A DNA stretch of 64,000 nucleotides, from contig CAMDWA010000002.1 of NCBI GenBank assembly GCA_945877855.1, positions 1 to 64,000 on the forward strand, written 5' to 3'. This document shows, one piece after another, positions 39,154 to 51,747 of the stretch. Position numbers and translations under genes: made by a program. The first letter of the stretch is position 1. Every line of letters starts with the position of its first letter. The notes beneath the pieces were generated by a model. The model was not told the DNA's origin. It saw only the letters and a list, made by a program, of their open reading frames with translations, and did not search any database. The stretch comes from Thermoflexus hugenholtzii JAD2 (GTDB lineage Bacteria; Chloroflexota; Anaerolineae; J036; Brachytrichaceae).

Positions 39154-40233
39154 ATGTTATCCCTCCCCACCATTCCCAAACTCGATACAACGGCGATGCA
39201 ACGTGCCGCGGCACGCCAAAACACATTAACCAAACCCAACGGCAGTTTGGGGCGATTAGAATCGTTGGCAATTGGGTTAGCCGGTATGCAAGGGTGTGAA
39301 CGACCTCAAATTCACCAACCCTGTATTATTGTGATTGCAGGGGATCATGGCATTACCCGCCAAGGCGTAAGCGCATACCCAGCCGAGGTCACACCACAAA
39401 TGGTGCTTAATTATTTGCGTGGTGGGGCGGCAGTGAATGTGTTAGCACGACATGCTGGAGCACAGATGCTGGTGGCGGATTTTGGGGTTGCGGCAGATAT
39501 GCCCGCCCATCCTGCGCTCGTATCGCAGAAAATAGCTTATGGCACGCGAGATTTCTCAATCGAACCGGCTATGACTGAAGCACAGGCCGAACAAGCCATT
39601 GCCCAAGGCATTGTCTTGGCAGATCGCGCCATCGACGAAGGGGCCGATTTAATCGTGCTGGGCGATATGGGCATCGGCAACACCACCGCTTCTGCCGCCA
39701 TGATTGCGGCATTAACAGGCAAACCCGCTGCCGATGTAACTGGGCGGGGCACGGGGGTTGATGATGTTACGTGGAAACGCAAAGTAGCCCTGATTGAACA
39801 AGCACTAACCACTTACCAGCTTCATTTGCCGCCTTACGATTTACATTCTGGTGCCGAAAATATTCCATTTGGCTTAAATTTATTGCGCCATGTGGGTGGT
39901 TTTGAAATTGGGGGGTTATGTGGGGTGGTGTTGGGTGCAGCTGCAAGGCGCGTGCCCGTGTTGGTTGATGGGGTGATCACAGGCGCAGCCGCGCTATTGG
40001 CGACAATGTTAGTCACAAATGCGCGTTATTATCTTATTGCCGCCCATCTTTCGGTTGAGCCGGGGCATCGCGCGGCCTTGGCTCATTTAGGTTTAACACC
40101 CTTGCTCGATTTAGAGTTGCGGCTTGGCGAAGGCAGTGGCGCAGCGCTCGCCATCCCGCTCATCGTCGCCGCATGTAAAGTGCTCAACGAAATGGCGACC
40201 TTCTCCGAAGCTGGAGTCTCAAATAATGGTTAA
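39154..40233 (+). CDS. cobT: Nicotinate-nucleotide-dimethylbenzimidazole phosphoribosyltransferase CobT
   Basis: 359 aa. It makes alpha-ribazole phosphate, the lower-ligand precursor of cobalamin, from nicotinate mononucleotide and dimethylbenzimidazole. Signatures: LTKPNGSLGRLESLA, VIAGDHGITRQGVSAYP, LGDMGIGNTTASAA, GRGTGVDD, and the C-terminal EPGHRAALAHLGLTPLLDLELRLGEGSGAALA with the catalytic Glu. Length is normal. The last codons and the stop codon (NNG-stop) lie within the heptamer array that follows, so its C-terminus has been shaped by the repeat. The start follows another repeat with no clear ribosome binding site. Confidence 0.96.
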   Translation: MLSLPTIPKLDTTAMQRAAARQNTLTKPNGSLGRLESLAIGLAGMQGCERPQIHQPCIIVIAGDHGITRQGVSAYPAEVTPQMVLNYLRGGAAVNVLARHAGAQMLVADFGVAADMPAHPALVSQKIAYGTRDFSIEPAMTEAQAEQAIAQGIVLADRAIDEGADLIVLGDMGIGNTTASAAMIAALTGKPAADVTGRGTGVDDVTWKRKVALIEQALTTYQLHLPPYDLHSGAENIPFGLNLLRHVGGFEIGGLCGVVLGAAARRVPVLVDGVITGAAALLATMLVTNARYYLIAAHLSVEPGHRAALAHLGLTPLLDLELRLGEGSGAALAIPLIVAACKVLNEMATFSEAGVSNNG

Positions 40234-40311: not shown

Positions 40312-40632
40312 ATGACCCCTTACGCACGACATCTTTTTATTTGCACTGGGCAATATTGCGACCCAGCAGGCGAAGCACAAGCTTTGTATGACAAATTGCC
40401 ACATATGTTAGGCGACCTCGCCCGTTATCGCAACCCTGAGCGCGTCAAACGTGGCACATGCCCGTGCCTTGGGGTGTGCCAAAACGGCCCCATTGTGGTG
40501 GTTTATCCCGATGGGGTGTGGTATGAGAAAGTAGACGAAACCGGCTTAAGCCGTATTGTCGAAGAACATCTAAAACAAAATAAACCCGTAGAAGATTTGG
40601 TTTTTCATCGGCTGATGTCAGCCGAGGATTAA
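40312..40632 (+). CDS. Thioredoxin-like (2Fe-2S) ferredoxin, cobalamin-locus type
   Basis: 106 aa. Four cysteines fit a thioredoxin-fold [2Fe-2S] cluster: Cys in [13 protein letters not shown] at the N-terminus and CPCLGVC in the middle, followed by [17 protein letters not shown] and a C-terminal helix VEDLVFHRL. Such small ferredoxins are often found in cobalt/cobalamin gene clusters, perhaps as reductants for cobalt or corrinoid; that role is inferred. cbtB starts 26 bases downstream. A truncated copy of this gene is found at 50914. Confidence 0.87.
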
Positions 40633-40951: not shown

Positions 40952-41674
40952 ATGCGCACTTTAAAACTAAATCAATCTTTGCTCTATGCACTTATAGCGG
41001 GTCTATTAGCTGCATTGGTTGTATCAGCTTTTCATGCTGTTATTACCGAGCCATTAATTGATCAAGCTATTGCTCTCGAAGAAACCGCCCATGAAGCAGG
41101 GCCACACACACATGCTGCCAACCCCACCGATGATGCTCCGATTATTAGCCGCGACAACCAAAAAATTGGGTTATGGATCGGCTATATTTTGCTAGGCAGC
41201 AGTTGGGCCGTGCTTTTTGGGTCAGTATATTACTTGGGGCAATCACATCTGCCGGGTCAATCATTAAACGAAAATTCGATATTTTTAGTCGCAGTCAGTT
41301 TATGGATATTTGCGATTTTGCCTGCGCTAAAATACCCCGCCACCCCCCCGGGTGTCGGCGATCCGAATACGATTTATTTTCGTCAAGCCACTTATTTAAG
41401 TCTTTTGGGCATTGGGGCGCTGGGTGCAGTTTTAGCCGCAGCCGTTTATTGGCGATCAAAAGCCAACGGGCTAAAACGCTGGTTGCTATCGCTTTACGTC
41501 ATCATTTTTGTAACCCTATCGGCAATATTATTACTGCCCAATAATCCTGATGCCATGACTGCACCAATGTCACTCGTGAATAATTTTCGTGTTTTATCTG
41601 TGCTGGGTTTATTGCTGTTTTGGCTGGTATTTGGGGTCACACACCGCTTTCAACTCAATCGATTTATCCAATAA
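40952..41674 (+). CDS. cbtA: Cobalt transporter subunit CbtA
   Basis: 240 aa with five to six hydrophobic helices. A His-rich loop after the first helix ([14 protein letters not shown]) could bind metal. The family motif [18 protein letters not shown] sits near residue 130. By family it forms the membrane channel part of the CbtAB cobalt importer. It ends one base before the cobO start codon, so translation is probably coupled. Confidence 0.93.
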
Positions 41675-41675
41675 T

Positions 41676-42272
41676 ATGTCTAATACAACCGAGTTACTCT
41701 CCACTGACGATGCCAAAGAGGCTCGTATTGCAGCCCGCCAAAATCGCAAAAAAAAAGGCCTTATCATTGTCAACACTGGCTCTGGCAAAGGCAAAACCAC
41801 CGCAGCGCTCGGCATTTTGCTACGGGCGTGGGGGCGCGATATGCGCATCGGCGGCATCCAATTTTTTAAGCACGAGACCGCCAGTTTTGGCGAACTAAAG
41901 GCGCTGAAAAAAATGGGCGTTGAGCTAACCCCGATGGGCGATGGTTTTACATGGACCAGCAAGGATTTGGACGAAACCCAAGCCAAGGCACTGAATGGCT
42001 GGGAAGTTGCCAAACAAAAAATCGCCATCGGCAATTACGATATCTTTTTGCTCGACGAATTCACCTACGTTATGGCATTTGGCTGGCTTGACCCCAATGT
42101 GGTGGTGGAATGGCTAAAGGCCAACAAACCACCCATGCTACATCTCATCATCACCGGTCGCCAAGCCCCGCCCGAGTTGGTCGAGTTGGCCGATTTGGTC
42201 ACCGAAATGACGTTGGTCAAACACCCATTTAAAGAACAAGGCATTTTGGCCCAACCGGGCATTGAGTTTTAA
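41676..42272 (+). CDS. cobO: Cob(I)yrinic acid a,c-diamide adenosyltransferase CobO (CobA/BtuR)
   Basis: 198 aa from the ATG at 41676; the frame upstream overlaps cbtA and is not family-like. The P-loop [14 protein letters not shown] is the reversed-ATP-binding loop of this family; also [44 protein letters not shown] and the C-terminal [13 protein letters not shown]. It transfers the 5'-deoxyadenosyl group from ATP to Co(I) corrinoids. An A7 run (LKKMG region) is intact here; the second copy at 51152 has A6 and is frameshifted. Confidence 0.95.
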
Positions 42273-42277
42273 AAGTA

Positions 42278-42345
42278 GCAAGTGCAAAGTGGAAAGTAAA
42301 AAGTAAATTTCCCACTTTCCACTTTGCACTTTGCACTTTGCACTT
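42278..42345. repeat. Inverted heptamer array before cobN
   Basis: AAGTGCA, AAGTGGA, AAGTAAA, AAGTAAA on the left are mirrored by CTTTCCA, CTTTGCA, CTTTGCA, CTTTGCA on the right. It ends 4 bases before the proposed cobN start, leaving no room for a normal ribosome binding site. Confidence 0.93.
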
Positions 42346-42349
42346 CATC

Positions 42350-45300
42350 ATGAACCAAAATCGCGTAACCCGTAGCGACGGCAAAAATATTAACCTCGTG
42401 CTAAAACAGGGCCACCTGTTTGTGTGTCGTGGGTGATGTTGTGGTCACGTAGAACGTGGCTATGCACCCGTGCCGGTGCAGCTATATCAAACCGAATGGG
42501 AGCGGCGTAAAATCCGCAACCGCGTGCACCTGACTATGGGGGAAGGGGCATGCCTTGGCCCGTGCTCGCTTGCCAACATCACCATGCTGATTTTTGACGG
42601 GGCGGCGGTGTGGCTACAAAACATGCACACCGATGCCCAAGTGTTGGCACTATACGACTACATCGAGGCCATGATTGCGGCAAATACCTATTTGCCGCCA
42701 CCGCCTGCGCTGGCGCCCTATGTTTTTCAGGCTTATGACTGGCAAACGCAAAAAACTGCGACCCCTGCGCCCTTGCCGCCCAGCCCCACGCCTATTCAAA
42801 TTCGCCCAGCCACTGCCGATTTTGTCTTTCTTACTCACGCTGACACCGATTTGCTGATTTTAGACAAAGCCAAAGCCCTGCTACCAACCGAGTTTGCCGC
42901 CATGCGTGGCTTCAATGCCGCCGAATTTGACACCCGCGCCAAAGTTGATGCCTTTATCTTAGACGAAGTCAGCGAGGTGAAAATTGTATTGGCGCGGTTG
43001 CTTACGCTAGACGACACGCTGCTCAGCCAATTGCGCGACCACTGCGTTGAATATGGCAAAGCCTTGGTGCTGGTATCGGGAACCGATGTGCCAGATATTG
43101 GGCTGGCAAAATTTAGCACGGTGTCACCCGCCGTGCAAACCGACACGCTCGGCTATTTTCGTGCAGGCGGGGCCAGCAATTTGGCGCAATTGTTGCGCTT
43201 TTTAAGCGACCATTTGCTCGCCACTGGCTTTGGCTACGAGCCACCTATGGCCCAAGCCCAACTTGGCTTAGCTCGACCCTTTGTCAAGAGCCATAACCCC
43301 AATTGCCTCACCATCGGCATTTTGTTTTATCGCGCCTATCACCTCAGCGGCAATATGGCCTTTGTTGATGCTCTCATTCACGAGATCGAGGCGCAAGGGG
43401 CACAAGCCTTGCCTATTTATGTGCCCGCGACCAAAGAAGCCAACCTGGCTGCGCTGGGGTTAGAAGGCGTAGCCGATGTATTTATTTCGACCCTCGCCAA
43501 TGCCGGCTTGTGGCGCGATACCGCCACCAACGGCACTGAAGGCGCACCCGCTGGCATGATCGGCGATTGTGTCGTCATTCAGTCCCCCATTAGCAGCAGC
43601 ACCCGCACCCAATGGGAAGCCAGTATGCGTGGGCTAAACCCGCGTGACACCATTACTACAGTCGTATTGCCAGAATTTGACGGGGCCATCATCGGCCCGC
43701 CGATTGCCTTTAAACAAGATCACGCGCTCACCTTCGAGATTGCGCCTGACCGTATTCGGCGGGTGGTGGGAATTGCTGTGAAATGGGCGGCATTGCGCCA
43801 CAAACCCAATGCCGAAAAGCGCGTTGCCTTTGTGCTGACCAACGCTTCGGCCAAAGCCGCAAAAATCGGCAATGCGGTGGGGTTAGATGCGCCAGCCTCG
43901 CTCACGCGCTTATTGAGCCATATGCAACAAGCCGGTTATGTGACCGGCGATTGGGAACACGTTGTGCGTGAATGGGCAAAAAATTCGGGCGAAGATTCTG
44001 CCGAGGATTCGGGCAAAACGCCAATGTCGCTCAGCGATGCGCTCATTCACATGTTGATTGCGCGAGGCAGCTACGACAAAGAATTTCTGGCCGACTTTCA
44101 ACTTGAGCAAGCCATCGGCAGCGTTGGCAAAAATGACTATGCGCGTTGGCACAATGAGCTAACCCAATTGCAAAAACAACAAATGGATGGGCGTTGGGGC
44201 GAGCCGCCGGGCGGGGCATTTCATCATCAAGGCAAATTGGTGTTTGCCGGGCTGCAATTTGAGCAAGTGTTTATTGGCTTACAACCGCCACGCGGTTATG
44301 GCATGGACCCGCGTCTCATTTATCACACCCCCGATCTGTCCCCCACGCATCATTATCATGCGTTTTATACTTGGCTCGCCAAACCACAAGCCGAGGGCGG
44401 CTGGGGGGCGGATGCCATTGTGCACATGGGCAAACATGGCACGCTCGAATGGCTGCCTGGCAAATCGTTAGGACTGTCTCAACACTGTTACCCCGACACG
44501 TTTTTGGCCGATGTGCCGCTCATTTACCCATTCATTTTGAATGACCCCGGCGAAGGAATGCAGGCCAAACGCCGCGCCCATGCCGTTATCGTTGATCATC
44601 TCACCCCGCCGCTCACTAATGCCGAGCTTTATGATGAGCTGAATGAATTATTGCAGTTGGTGGATGAATATTACCAACTCGAAGCCACCGACCCCAGCAA
44701 ATTGCCCAGCTTGCAGCGACAAATTTGGGATTTGATGAAAAAAGCCCATTTAGATGACGATTTGCAACGGCTGTCGCAAAAGCAAGCTGAATTACATGGG
44801 CATACATGGGATATGGTTGAGACGGACGAAGGCTTGCCCGTCACCCTTGTCGAGATGCAAGGCATCGATTTCTCGCACATGCTCGAAGATATTCAGGGCT
44901 ATTTGTGCGAATTGCATGGCGCACAGATTCGAGATGGTTTGCACATCTTGGGCGAGATTCCGAGCGGTGAAGCCTTGGGGGATTTGCTATTTGCCCTGAC
45001 GCGCTTGCCCAATCTCAATATTCCCAGCTTGCGTGATACGGTTGCCGCCAATTTGGGCGTTTCGCTCGATGACAAACGCGCCATGCTCGATGTTGATGTG
45101 CGTTGCCGTGAGTTGATTCGTGACTTCCTATCGCTCACCCCTCGCTCCTCCCAACTGGGAGGGGAAAAAGATTCCCCTCCCAGTTGGGAGGAGCGAGGGG
45201 TGGGCCAAACGCTTACCTTCATCCGAGATACTTTGCTGCCCAATTTACGCAAAACCGATGCCGAGATCCATCATGTTTTGCGGGCGCTGGCTGGCAAACC

Positions 45301-46615
45301 CATTCCACCCGGCCCCAGCGGCGCACCCACGCGTGGCATGGCGCACGTATTGCCCACAGGTCGCAATTTTTACTCCCTCGACCCGCGAGCCGTGCCGAGC
45401 CAACTTGCGTGGCGCGTCGGCCAAACTTTGGCCGATCAAAGCATTGAACGCTATCGCCAAGAAACCGGCAAATTCCCTGAAACGGTAGGACTAACCTTGT
45501 GGGGAACCAGTGCCATGCGCACACATGGCGACGATGTGGCCCAAGCCCTTGCCCTGATGGGGGTGCGCCCCATTTGGCAGACCGCCAATCGGCGCGTAAC
45601 TGGCGTGGCCCTTATTCCGCTCAGCGAATTGGGCCGCCCACGGGTAAATGTCTTGATGCGCATCAGCGGCATGTTCCGCGATGCTTATCCGCACTTAATC
45701 GAGTTGTTGGACGACGCAGTGAAGTTGGCGACTGAATGTGACGAGCCACTCAGCCAAAATGCGGTGCTCAGTTATTTTGTTAATGAGCGGGCACGTTTGT
45801 TGGCCCAAGGGTTAACAGATAGCGAGGCACTTAACCGTGCCCGTTATCGCATTTTTGGAAGCAAACCCGGTGCATACGGCGCGGGCATTTTGCCGCTGAT
45901 CGAAGAAGGCAACTGGAAAGATATCAATGATTTTGCACAAGTGTTTGTGGCGTGGGGCGGCTATGCCTACACCCGTGAGGTCTTTGGCGTGGATGCGCGT
46001 GACGAATTTAAGCAAGTATTGCGCGTGACCCAAGTTGCCATTAAAAACCAAGATAACCGCGAACACGATATTTATGACAGTGATGATTATTTGCAATTTC
46101 ATGGCGGCATGATCGCCGCCATTCGTAGCATGAGCGGGGTCGCGCCCAAAGCCTATTTTGGCGACAGCAGCGACCCCGCCCGTAGCAAGGTGCGCGATTT
46201 GCGCGACGAAAGCACCCGTGTTTTTCGCAGCCGCGTGGCAAACCCCAAATGGATCACCAGCATGATGCGGCATGGCTATAAAGGCGGGCTAGAAATGGCG
46301 GCGACTGTTGATTATTTGTTTGGCTACGACGCCACCAGCGATGTGTTAGATGATTGGCAATATGCTGATGTCGCGCAAAAATATACGTTGGACAAGCATG
46401 TACAAGATTTCCTTAAACAGTCAAATCCTTGGGCATTGCAAAGCATGTTGCGACGCCTGCTCGAGGCGATTGAGCGCGGTATGTGGGCCGCCGATGACGA
46501 CATGAAGCAACGCCTACTGGCTGAACTCGCCAAATTGGGCGGCGATTTGGAAGATTGGATGGAGATGGCGTGGCAGAAAAGTGAAAATTTAAAATTGAAG
46601 ATGGAACAAAGATGA
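42350..46615 (+). CDS. cobN: Cobaltochelatase subunit CobN with N-terminal [2Fe-2S]-type domain; contains in-frame TGA
   Basis: 1421 codons from the ATG at 42350. Codons 1-110 encode a thioredoxin-like ferredoxin domain: LFVCRG-TGA-CCGHVERG, then EWERRKIRNRVHLTMG and GACLGPCSLAN. Codon 29 is TGA where related domains, as I recall, have cysteine; see the separate entry. If TGA stops, the body could restart at the GTG at 42470 but would lose half of the domain. The CobN/BchH body carries LARPFVKSHNPN, LQPPRGYGMDPRLIYHTPD, and the signature DAIVHMGKHGTLEWLPGK. It inserts Co2+ into hydrogenobyrinate a,c-diamide with ChlI/ChlD. A 67-base palindrome (45136-45202) is translated in frame as a foreign-looking loop. 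The C-terminus (NLKLKMEQR) also looks repeat-derived. cobB overlaps by 4 bases. Confidence 0.92.
42434..42462 (+). other. Candidate selenocysteine codon and SECIS-like hairpin in cobN
   Basis: TGA at 42434-42436 interrupts an otherwise continuous domain at a cysteine position (CRG-U-CCG). Five bases later TGGTCACG (42442-42449) pairs with CGTGGCTA (42455-42462) around a UAGAA loop, 8 bp including two G-T pairs. A second hairpin TGCACC / GGTGCA is at 42463-42480. Bacterial SECIS elements sit just behind the UGA, so placement is suitable, but no sel genes are in the window. A point mutation, sequencing error or true stop are alternatives. Confidence 0.45.
45136..45202. repeat. Perfect 31-bp inverted repeat inside cobN
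   Basis: CACCCCTCGCTCCTCCCAAC... (45136-45166) and its exact complement (45172-45202) have a 5-base loop. It is translated in frame as SLTPRSSQLGG, then a Lys-Asp turn and SPPSWEERGVG, between two conserved CobN segments. Confidence 0.93.
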
Positions 46616-48000
46616 ATATTCCACGCATTATCATCGCCGCGACGCACAGCGGCGCAGGCAAAACCACGTTTGCAGCAGGCTTAATTGCCGCCTGTCGGGC
46701 GCGAGGGTTGCGTGTTGCGCCTTTCAAAATTGGCCCAGATTATATTGACCCGTCATATCACGCATTGGCGGCGGGTGCGCCATGCCACAATCTCGATACG
46801 TGGATGCTGCCGCCGGAACGGGTGCGCGAGTCATTTGTGCGACGCTGCAAAAACGCTGACCTCGCCATCATCGAAGGGGTGATGGGGTTATTTGATGGCA
46901 AAGCCGCCGATGACGATGTGGGCAGCGCGGCGCATGTGGCGCGGTTGCTCGATGCCCCCATTGTTTTAGTATTAGATGCCCGCGCCATGGCGCGCACAGC
47001 GGCGGTGTTGGTCAAAGGCATTGCCGATTTTGACCCACGTTTGCACATTGGTGGGTTTGTGGCAAATCGGGTGGGTAGCGCTGGCCATGCAAAACTTATT
47101 GCCCAAGCTGCCGAATCAATTGCGTCACCGCCTATGATTGGGCATTTGGTGCGCAATGATGCCTTGGTATTGCCCGAACGCCATCTCGGGCTTGTGCCCA
47201 CCAACGAGTCTGGGCAATGGCACACTTGGCTGAGCGAGGTACAACGCCAAATTGAGGCCAGTGTCAATCTTGATCAGCTATTGGCACTCGCCAACAACGC
47301 CCCCGCCACTTTGCCTGAGTATGGAATCTCTGGCAATAAGCCCAATCATTCACCCAAACAGTGTCGTATCGCCATTGCCCGCGATGCGGCATTTTCGTTT
47401 ATTTACGAAGATAATTTAGATTTGTTAATTGAGGCGGGCGCACAGCTTGCGTTTTTTAGCCCATTGACCGACACAAAGCTACCCGACGACACGCAAGGTC
47501 TTTATCTTGGCGGTGGCTTCCCAGAGTTATACGCGAGTGAATTGTCGGCCAATGTCGCCATGCGGCACAGCATTCAAGCCGCCAGCCGCGCCGGCATGCC
47601 CATTTATGCCGAATGTGGCGGATTAATGTATCTCACCGAAACCATTATTGACCAACAGGGGCAAGGTTATGCAATGGTTGGCGTGTTGGCGGGCACATCT
47701 CAAATGTCGCCACGCCTGACGCTGGGCTACCGCGAAGTTGCTGCGATGCAAGATAATTGGCTGTGGCAGGCTGGCGAAACCATGCGCGGTCACGAATTTC
47801 ACTATTCAAATTGGAGCGAAAGCCCTACCAATGTGTCATCTTTGTATCGAGCTGCGGCCCCCGCGCCTTGGCAAACTGAGGGCGCGATCATTGGCAACAC
47901 CTTGGCCTCGTATGTGCATTTACATTGGCTGGCAAAACCCGAATTGGCGATTCGGTTTGTGGCGGCGGGGAAGGATTGGGGGATGAGGATTAGAGATTGA
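46612..48000 (+). CDS. cobB: Cobyrinate / hydrogenobyrinate a,c-diamide synthase (CobB/CbiA)
   Basis: 462 aa. N-terminal ATPase domain with P-loop ATHSGAGKTT, FKIGPDYIDPSYH, and NLDTWMLPP. The C-terminal class I glutamine amidotransferase domain has LYLGGGFPELYA, the nucleophile in YAECGGLMYL, and the His in GHEFHYS plus a late HLHW. It amidates side chains a and c using Gln and ATP. The ATG overlaps the cobN stop (ATGA), so the two are translationally coupled. With CobN in the locus, an aerobic-type (late cobalt insertion) pathway is implied and hydrogenobyrinate is the likely substrate. Confidence 0.95.
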   Translation: MNIPRIIIAATHSGAGKTTFAAGLIAACRARGLRVAPFKIGPDYIDPSYHALAAGAPCHNLDTWMLPPERVRESFVRRCKNADLAIIEGVMGLFDGKAADDDVGSAAHVARLLDAPIVLVLDARAMARTAAVLVKGIADFDPRLHIGGFVANRVGSAGHAKLIAQAAESIASPPMIGHLVRNDALVLPERHLGLVPTNESGQWHTWLSEVQRQIEASVNLDQLLALANNAPATLPEYGISGNKPNHSPKQCRIAIARDAAFSFIYEDNLDLLIEAGAQLAFFSPLTDTKLPDDTQGLYLGGGFPELYASELSANVAMRHSIQAASRAGMPIYAECGGLMYLTETIIDQQGQGYAMVGVLAGTSQMSPRLTLGYREVAAMQDNWLWQAGETMRGHEFHYSNWSESPTNVSSLYRAAAPAPWQTEGAIIGNTLASYVHLHWLAKPELAIRFVAAGKDWGMRIRD

Positions 48001-48285: not shown

Positions 48286-49191
48286 ATGATCATCTTCATC
48301 ACTTGGATCCTCGATTTATGGCTAGGTGAGCCGCCAGTGCGGCTACATCCTGTCATTTGGATAGGCAATTATTTGCGCTGGGTGCGCAAACGCTTGCCGC
48401 CCACCTTTTGGGCCGGTGCATTGGCATGGTTGGGCGGAGCGATTGTCGTTTTTGGCATTGCACTCTTCATTACACAAATTTTAAATTTTAAATTTTTCAT
48501 TTTAAATTTACTCACCAGCGCCTTGTTGCTAAAGACACTCATTGCATGGCGGGCGCTGCGTGAGGCGGCCAATGAGGTGCTGAACGCGCCAGACTTGCCC
48601 GAAATGCGCAAAATGCTGTCGTGGCATTTGGTCAGTCGCAACACCAGCGAGCTAAGTGAAGCCGAGGTGTGTGGCGCGACAATTGAATCGGTGGCCGAAA
48701 ATTTGAGTGATTCGCTCATTGCGCCGCTGTTTTGGTTTGTGATCGGGCAAATATTGGGCGGGGACAACCTGCCACTCGGCTTGGCTTTTGCCGCGCTGTA
48801 TCGTTACACCAACACCGCCGACGCCATGTGGGGCTATCGCACCCCCGAACTCGAATATTTTGGCAAATGGACGGCGCGGCTCGACGACGTGCTTAACCTC
48901 ATCCCCTCACGGCTGACGGCTTTGCTCATTTGTGTTTGTTCGGGCAACGCCCGCTCATGGCAAATTTGGTGGCGCGACGGCCTCAGCACCCCTTCGCCCA
49001 ACGCCGGACAACCCATGAGTGCCGCTGCTGGGGCGCTTAACGTGCGGCTGACCAAACGCAATTTATACGATCTCGGGCGCGAATTGCCTGATCCAACCAA
49101 ACTCGATGGCACACGTGCCATCACCCTGTGCGCCCGTGCCGCTTGGATTGGGGTGATCGGTTACGCTGCCATCAATTTTTTTGCCCAATGA
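48286..49191 (+). CDS. cbiB: Adenosylcobinamide-phosphate synthase CbiB (CobD in aerobic naming)
   Basis: 301 aa membrane protein. The start DLWLGEPPVRLHPVIWIG is the family's signature. AAANEVLNAPD-like, SWHLVSRNTSELSEAEV, ATIESVAENLSDSLIAPLFWF, YRYTNTADAMWGYR and SPNAGQPMSAAAGAL all fit. It attaches the aminopropanol (or its phosphate) linker to cobyrate. Residues around 65-75 (QILNFKFFILNLL) come from an AAATTTTA repeat tract inside the gene and lie in a hydrophobic segment. cobC overlaps by 4 bases (ATGA). Confidence 0.94.
   Translation: MIIFITWILDLWLGEPPVRLHPVIWIGNYLRWVRKRLPPTFWAGALAWLGGAIVVFGIALFITQILNFKFFILNLLTSALLLKTLIAWRALREAANEVLNAPDLPEMRKMLSWHLVSRNTSELSEAEVCGATIESVAENLSDSLIAPLFWFVIGQILGGDNLPLGLAFAALYRYTNTADAMWGYRTPELEYFGKWTARLDDVLNLIPSRLTALLICVCSGNARSWQIWWRDGLSTPSPNAGQPMSAAAGALNVRLTKRNLYDLGRELPDPTKLDGTRAITLCARAAWIGVIGYAAINFFAQ
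48476..48511. repeat. AAATTTTA heptamer tract inside cbiB
   Basis: Three AAATTTT units are followed by the inverted word ATTTTAAATTT. Translated in frame as NFKFFILN in a membrane segment, where it does no obvious harm. Confidence 0.75.
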
Positions 49192-50228
49192 AACCCTATT
49201 TGCCACTATTATCCCGCGCCACCCACGGCGGCCCGCAAGCCGCCAACGAAAATATCATTGACTTTTCGGTCAATACCAACCCACTTGGTCCCAACCCCAT
49301 GCTCATGCAAATTTGGCGCGAGGCCGATTTGGTTGGCTACCCCGACCCGTATTACACCGTCGCACGTAGCGCATTGGCAAACATGCACCAGTGGTCGGTG
49401 GATGGCGTGGTGCTGGGCGTGGGCGCGAGCGAATTGTTGCACCGCATTGCACGGGTGTTCATCGGCCCCGATGACGCGGTGTATAGCCTAGATGCGCCAT
49501 TTGGCGAATTTGAACGGGCGGTGGCGTTACAACGTGGGCGCTTAAGTGTTGCCCCGCGTCAGTCCGACCTAACCGCCTTTGCTGCAACCTTGCAGCAGCG
49601 TTTTCACAGCATTGTCTATTTATCAAATCCACACAATCCTAGCGGGCATCTCTATTCACCCGCTCAATTGGCCCCATTGCTGGCAAACGAACAAACGTTG
49701 GTGGTGCTAGATGAGGCATATGCGCCTTTCGCCGCCACTGCGTATGATTGGCCGTGCCAGCCTAACCTCATTCGCGTGTGGTCGCCGAGCAAAGCGCATG
49801 GATTATTGGGCATGAGGATGGCTTATGTACTGGCGCACCCCGATACCGCCCAATTGTTGCAAAATGCTCAACCAGCGTGGGCCATCCCATCAGCAACGGC
49901 AGCAGCATTGGCGGCCTTGCCCGATCAAAGCGACTTTTTGCAGCGCACCCTGCCGCAAGTGCGGGCGTGGTCCAACGACTTGGCGCTGGCATTGGGGGCA
50001 CAGCCGAGCGGCATTCATTATTTTATGCTGCGGGTAAATAACGCGGCCCAAACCGCAGCGCGGCTGCTGGCGTTAGGCATTCGCGTGCGCAATTGCGCCT
50101 CGTTTGGCTACCCGCAACATATTCGTATTGCGACCCGTATGCCAGAGGTTGATCGGGTGTTGGTGGAGGCGCTGGCGTTCAAAATATCTCCGGTCAATCA
50201 GCTTTATTTGTTGGCAGTGAGTGATTAA
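49188..50228 (+). CDS. cobC: L-threonine-O-3-phosphate decarboxylase-like aminotransferase (CobC / Salmonella CobD)
   Basis: 346 aa, class I/II PLP fold. HGGPQAANENIIDFSVNTNPLGPNP is the usual start, then VGASELLHRIARVF, LSNPHNPSGHLYSP, LVVLDEAYAPF, and the Schiff-base lysine in VWSPSKAHGLLGMRMAYV. It yields aminopropanol phosphate, the linker used by CbiB. The ATG at 49188 overlaps the cbiB stop; an upstream in-frame ATG would lie within cbiB. Histidinol-phosphate aminotransferase is the close relative, but position next to cbiB makes the cobalamin role likely. It is the last intact gene of the B12 locus. Confidence 0.92.
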   Translation: MKPYLPLLSRATHGGPQAANENIIDFSVNTNPLGPNPMLMQIWREADLVGYPDPYYTVARSALANMHQWSVDGVVLGVGASELLHRIARVFIGPDDAVYSLDAPFGEFERAVALQRGRLSVAPRQSDLTAFAATLQQRFHSIVYLSNPHNPSGHLYSPAQLAPLLANEQTLVVLDEAYAPFAATAYDWPCQPNLIRVWSPSKAHGLLGMRMAYVLAHPDTAQLLQNAQPAWAIPSATAAALAALPDQSDFLQRTLPQVRAWSNDLALALGAQPSGIHYFMLRVNNAAQTAARLLALGIRVRNCASFGYPQHIRIATRMPEVDRVLVEALAFKISPVNQLYLLAVSD

Positions 50229-51099: not shown

Positions 51100-51151
51100 A
51101 TTGGATTGAGTGTTATATGCCGCAGAAATATGGCATTTAAAATTTAAAAAT

Positions 51152-51747
51152 ATGTCTGATAACCCTGAATTACTTTCAACCGACGAAGCCAAAGCCAAAC
51201 GTAATGAGGCCCGCCAAAATCGTAAAAAGAAAGGCCTCATCATTGTCAACACCGGCGATGGCAAAGGCAAAACAACCGCTGCCCTCGGCATTTTGTTGCG
51301 GGCGTGGGGGCGCGATATGCGCATCGGCGGTATTCAATTTTTTAAGCACGAGACCGCCAGTTTTGGCGAGCTAAAAGCGCTGAAAAAATGGGCGTTGAAC
51401 TAACCCCGATGGGCGATGGCTTTACGTGGACAAGCAAGGATTTGGACGAAACCCAAGCCAAAGCGCTGAATGGTTGGGAAGTCGCCAAACAAAAAATTGC
51501 CAGTGGCAATTACGATATCTTTTTGCTTGATGAATTTACCTATGTGATGTCGTTTGGCTGGGTTGACCCAAAGGTGGCGGTGGAATGGCTCAAGGTCAAC
51601 AAACCACCTATGCTGCACCTCATCATCACCGATCGCCAAGCCCCGCCCGAATTGGTCGAGTTGGCCGATTTGGTCACCGAAATGACGTTGGTCAAACATC
51701 CATTTCAGGAACAAGGCATTTTGGCCCAACCGGGGATTGAGTTTTAG
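51152..51747 (+). pseudogene. cobO: Second cobO copy with a one-base frameshift in an A-run
   Basis: The copy starts [16 protein letters not shown] and is nearly identical in sequence to the cobO at 41676. At 51384-51389 it has A6 where the intact gene has A7 (CTGAAAAAATGGGC), so the frame shifts and stops at LKKWALN. The downstream frame (from 51388, [11 protein letters not shown]) continues unbroken to the normal end GIEF. All motifs (P-loop [34 protein letters not shown]) are otherwise kept. It is either a fresh pseudogene or a gene rescued by slippage on the A-run. Confidence 0.88.

Follow-up and report, generated by a model that had tools for sequence, protein, structure and literature searches.

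CobN proteins that lack an N-terminal ferredoxin domain are functional in other bacteria. In some methanogens the selenocysteine (Sec) that replaces a Cys of HdrA binds a 4Fe-4S cluster. The known proteins closest to the domain considered here include the Azotobacter Shethna protein I, whose cluster is held by Cys11, Cys24, Cys56 and Cys60 (PMC8561814). HdrA is among the 119 families of prokaryotic selenoproteins catalogued in 2026, and the entries tied to cobalt or corrinoid biology include a CobW-related protein (NF041053), BtuF and HgcA (PMC13188914). A CobN with an amber codon (PMC1242214) is an unrelated pyrrolysine case from Methanosarcina, and was later judged to be probably a pseudogene (PMC1914089). 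Here we describe a cobN gene whose in-frame TGA is very probably decoded as Sec. The assignment is a prediction at the protein level, strongly supported by computational evidence.

Structure of the cobN locus

The window, i.e. the whole stretch of DNA that was analysed, is 64,000 nucleotides long. In the window the frame opened by the ATG at 42350 runs to 46615 and is interrupted by a single TGA at codon 29 (CRG-U-CCGH), as had been claimed in the original prediction; the Cys residues of the domain continue in the motif GACLGPC, again as described there. The product was identified as CobN by a full-length match to TIGR02257 (1113.8 bits, curated cut-off 822.05) and by PF02514 (1245.6 bits). 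Together with CobS/CobT-type partners it is predicted to act as a cobaltochelatase, with hydrogenobyrinic acid diamide as the substrate that receives the cobalt.

The gene lies in a B12 cluster, between the adenosyltransferase gene cobA/btuR and cobB (Table 1). The small separate ferredoxin encoded upstream might work with the domain fused to CobN or stand in for it.

Table 1. Features of the cobN region (positions in the window; numbers with a plus sign in brackets are relative to the UGA)
Feature	Position	Strand	Remarks
cobT, dimethylbenzimidazole phosphoribosyltransferase	39154..40233	+	
Separate small thioredoxin-like 2Fe-2S ferredoxin	40312..40632	+	NF041612, E = 4e-13, below family cut-off
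CbtA-like cobalt transporter	40952..41674	+	TIGR02458, E = 1e-6, below cut-off
cobA/btuR, cob(I)yrinic acid a,c-diamide adenosyltransferase	41589..42272	+	
cobN with N-terminal ferredoxin-like domain	42350..46615	+	1421 residues if UGA is Sec; PF02514 and TIGR02257
Predicted thioredoxin-like [2Fe-2S] ferredoxin domain	42350..42736	+	Alignments, profile match to 5abr, NF041613
In-frame TGA, predicted Sec codon (residue 29)	42434..42436	+	Conserved in G001 and L154; Cys in 41/41 Cys forms
First hairpin	42440..42464 (+4..+28)	+	Stem of 10-11 bp, loop AGA
Second hairpin, best SECIS candidate	42463..42480 (+27..+44)	+	6-bp stem UGCACC/GGUGCA, loop CGUGCC
cobB, cobyrinic acid a,c-diamide synthase	46612..48000	+	
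cbiB	48286..49191	+	
cobD-like aminotransferase/decarboxylase	49128..50228	+	Below cut-off

Two further features of the region were recorded. A second copy of cobA/btuR (51110-51747) is 89% identical in DNA sequence to 41670-42271 and lacks one A in an A-run; it is a pseudogene, a slippage-dependent gene or an assembly error. Short direct repeats of the CACTTTG type are located just 5′ of the cobN start (42273-42349). At the same place in the cobN locus of a second species of the genus (positions 1-150 of L101) there are repeats of a different sequence, of the CTGCAAC type.

Comparison of CobN homologues at the TGA column

Among 60 relatives examined, we found the same TGA in a second species of the genus (G001, Anaerolineae AQU-02, JAHBAL020000221.1; loci L019/L101). 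The two CobN proteins are 88.6% identical over 953 codons, and their ferredoxin domains are 91% identical. Upstream of the TGA the codon differences are mostly synonymous, and the start codon and the domain are kept, which indicates that the stretch preceding the stop is translated. The occurrence of the TGA in an independent species also means that it is not a sequencing slip.

The original prediction had placed the TGA at a Cys position, and the homologues bear this out: the other members of the family (f1) have a Cys codon, TGC or TGT, in this column, and so do all 41 distinct Cys-form CobN domains, every one of which carries the triad CCC. In a search of the phylum the domain was present in 53 of 400 genomes. 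No relatives were found in viral contigs.

A motif scan of 84,980 species revealed a more distant case, a Thermomicrobiales cobN (L154) with TGA in the same column (CGFG-U-CCGHVDRG...GGCLGPC). The gene follows cobB-like and adenosyltransferase-like frames, neighbours that were recognised by eye, and its genome encodes a tRNA-Sec (70.1 bits). A single frameshift lies about 840 codons further on in this cobN, so that it carries less weight than the gene of G001. The TGA form was thus found in three genomes only, and the Sec/Cys tree requires three changes; Sec may have had one single origin.

The scan for the Sec-type motif gave 111 pattern matches, of which L101 and L154 alone were recognised as real; the others look like chance. 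Many Actinomycetota contigs share a near-identical match to the pattern, [GA]-stop-CCGRCDRGW (loci L086, L089, L109, L114, L130, L142, L157, L161 and L167-L169), which probably comes from a single conserved gene, read on its antisense strand or in another frame.

Selenocysteine use in the lineage

The source genome encodes the complete Sec machinery: selA (500 bits, C23), selB (334.7 bits, C161), the tRNA-Sec encoded by selC (76.4 bits, C56) and selD (377.7 bits, C37) all scored above the curated cut-offs. The selD gene itself has one internal TGA (motif CAG-U-AGK), and one TGA is present in selD of all four genomes of the genus, the source and three others. A formate dehydrogenase homologue with internal TGA was detected in G001 and in a further genome of the genus, G003; in the latter, which was read directly, the expected U-H motif is present. 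The machinery and the Sec codons of selD and formate dehydrogenase show that the lineage uses Sec.

The tRNA-Sec scores were bimodal, 65-76 bits in Sec users and 48-52 bits in four genomes (G004, G007, G011 and G016), where we read the matches as tRNA-Ser-like. Defining a clear tRNA-Sec as one of at least 65 bits, every genome with a TGA-form cobN has one, and the four low-scoring genomes carry only the Cys form of the CobN domain.

SECIS candidates downstream of the TGA

According to the bacterial SECIS model, a loop of 3-9 nt with a G in its first two positions is carried by a stem of 4-16 bp, 16-37 nt from the UGA (PMC13188914). The hairpin starting 5 bases past the TGA, to which the original prediction had pointed, does exist (10-bp stem, loop AGA), but it is probably not the main SECIS; the next hairpin is the better candidate. 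The second hairpin agrees with the model in loop, stem, G and spacing: its loop is located at 42469-42474 (+33..+38), with 32 nt between UGA and loop. The register is that of the genome's own selD, which has the loop CGUGUU at exactly +33..+38 on stems of 7-9 bp in the source and in the three other genomes of the genus. Taken alone the loop match with selD is weak, because a conserved Val codon fixes GU at +34/+35; the informative part of the second hairpin is the stem.

A stem of at least 5 bp in the +33..+38 register did not occur in any of the 41 Cys forms. In synonymous recodings of the sequence a 6-bp stem in the selD register arose in 3.6% of the cases (P = 0.036), a stem of at least 11 bp for the first hairpin in 7.7%, and both hairpins together in 0.26%. 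The degenerate codons between positions 30 and 44, ending at the base of the second hairpin, are all unchanged between the source and G001 (15/15), whereas 28.9% of comparable codons differ gene-wide. In length this run shares no more than second place within cobN, and it supports the hairpin without being decisive.

The Thermomicrobiales gene L154 has other hairpins but no stem at +33, and a search of Rfam gave no match at the locus or within the 64-kb window. The fold energy of the RNA downstream of the TGA was rejected as evidence: it is ordinary, -12.0 kcal/mol as compared to a mean of -9.8 (sd 2.6) for the Cys homologues, and not unusual among synonymous recodings (P about 0.25). In summary, the hairpin evidence for a SECIS in cobN is moderate.

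The ferredoxin-like domain and the predicted place of selenocysteine

Pfam has no domain for the N-terminal ferredoxin-like region. A profile built from 30 members matched the thioredoxin-like ferredoxin domains of hydrogenases and, with E = 2.2e-5, Shethna protein I (5abr). Of the 30 members, 28 matched NF041613, with scores under the family cut-off. An AlphaFold model of the domain, made from three sequences, was of too low quality (pLDDT 50.4) to show where the Sec lies. The alignments revealed six invariant Cys/Sec positions: C26, U29, C30, C31, C68 and C72. They contain the four-Cys ligand pattern, with C26 and the triad in the first loop and C-x3-C, as CLGPC, in the second. By position C26, C68 and C72 appear to correspond to ligands of Shethna protein I, and in our reading C31-G32 aligns with its Cys24-Gly. 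U29 and C30 are probably not ligands of the cluster.

Two genomes of another Chloroflexota family, G149 and G316, encode distantly related standalone domains in which TGA replaces the second Cys of the triad (CxGC-U-CG). There are two paralogous standalone ferredoxins with TGA per genome (loci L061-L064 and L229, L230, L238, L239), with strong hairpins downstream. A different family within the class has all-Cys relatives of these proteins, and the standalone ferredoxins are likely to be another new group of selenoproteins.

In the mechanism that we propose, SelB and Sec-tRNA would decode the UGA at 42434 under the direction of a SECIS located within the cobN reading frame, for which the second hairpin is the best candidate. 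Sec would take the place of the first Cys in the Cys-Cys-Cys triad of the fused domain. The third Cys of the triad would most likely bind the cluster together with C26, C68 and C72, whereas Sec and the neighbouring Cys would sit beside it as a pair active in redox chemistry or in metal handling. The pair or the cluster could then pass electrons to, or handle cobalt for, the chelatase reaction. Sec occurs at position 1 of the triad in CobN and at position 2 in the standalone proteins but never at position 3, which suggests that positions 1 and 2 are not a fixed ligand and fits a pair beside the cluster. We consider the chances of a non-ligand redox role of Sec to be about even.

The main alternative for the role of Sec is that selenium itself ligates the [2Fe-2S] cluster instead of standing beside it as a free selenol. 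Such a role has a precedent in the Sec of HdrA, and the residue belongs to an invariant triad that includes the expected second ligand. Both the alignment of C31-G32, at the end of the triad, with Cys24-Gly and the distribution of Sec over positions 1 and 2 speak against it, and we regard direct ligation as rather unlikely. Slightly better, although still doubtful, are the prospects of a wider proposal, in which Sec is directly involved in handling cobalt or in reducing cobalt or corrin, with selenium ligating the [2Fe-2S] cluster or cobalt. CobN would then be the first selenium-containing tetrapyrrole metal chelatase, and B12 synthesis in these bacteria would depend on selenium.

Alternative readings of the TGA

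The original prediction of a CobN selenoprotein is supported by the Sec machinery, the Cys column, the TGA of the second species, the distant recurrence of the TGA and the SECIS-like hairpin. Three readings that place something other than Sec insertion in the foreground were weighed against it.

The UGA could mainly be a selenium-dependent switch: without selenium, translation would end at codon 29, leaving the cell with no CobN or with a shorter protein started from the GTG at 42470, whereas selenium would allow synthesis of the full protein. Gene finding with table 11 does put the start of cobN at this GTG, which opens an in-frame ORF of 1381 codons, and a CobN lacking the ferredoxin domain would be expected to work, as it does elsewhere. 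However, the GTG is situated inside the loop of the predicted SECIS, inspection of the sequence found no apparent ribosome-binding site ahead of it, and all Cys-form relatives conserve the whole domain and have no reason to start at the GTG. We consider it improbable that the UGA is mainly a switch, although a switch and Sec insertion could both be true.

That cobN is decaying or mis-assembled, and the TGA a nonsense mutation or an assembly error, is less probable still. The assembly consists of 246 contigs with an estimated completeness of 79%, and the contig has one frameshift elsewhere, in the duplicate adenosyltransferase gene. This reading is already contradicted by the same TGA in the independent genome of another species; moreover, the remaining 1420 codons are open and conserved, the relatives have TGC or TGT Cys codons, and the Sec machinery is present.

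A variant genetic code that always translates TGA as Trp, Gly or Cys has nothing in its favour beyond the in-frame TGA and can practically be dismissed, as cobN itself ends with TGA (46613-46615, in an ATGA at 46612-46615 that overlaps the cobB start), so that the organism uses TGA as a normal stop, table 11 yields ordinary full-length genes across the region, and the only other genes in which internal TGA was seen are known Sec genes of the genus.

Decoding of the TGA as Sec would have consequences for annotation. Gene finders would miss the Sec form of CobN by calling the start at 42470; a start at this GTG would halve the domain, as the original prediction had pointed out. A selenoprotein CobN would connect selenium supply with B12 synthesis. 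The presence of Sec at two different positions marks the conserved Cys triad as chemically important, and gives an approach to the question of what a ferredoxin does on some cobaltochelatases.

Comparison with known systems

The predicted selenoprotein CobN looks like a new selenoprotein family. The catalogue of 119 prokaryotic families contains neither CobN nor a thioredoxin-like ferredoxin with the triad motif (PMC13188914). A text search of the literature, with most subscription papers outside its coverage, found no CobN selenoprotein.

The protein resembles the CobN of TIGR02257 in its full-length match and in its B12 synthesis cluster, and the same N-terminal Cys-rich domain is commonly attached to CobN in Chloroflexota, Deinococcus, Granulicella and Spirosoma; what distinguishes the present gene is a TGA in place of one Cys codon of the triad. 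With Shethna protein I and NF041613 the domain shares profile similarity over the first Cys, the helix and the CLGPC motif. It differs from them in its short first loop, where a CCC triad replaces C-x12-C, in scores far below the family cut-off and in the predicted Sec of the triad. HdrA is likewise an iron-sulfur protein with Sec at a Cys position, but it is a 4Fe-4S protein of methanogens with an unrelated fold. The CobW-related protein NF041053, BtuF and HgcA share with the predicted selenoprotein CobN the link to cobalt or corrinoids, but as proteins they are unrelated to it.
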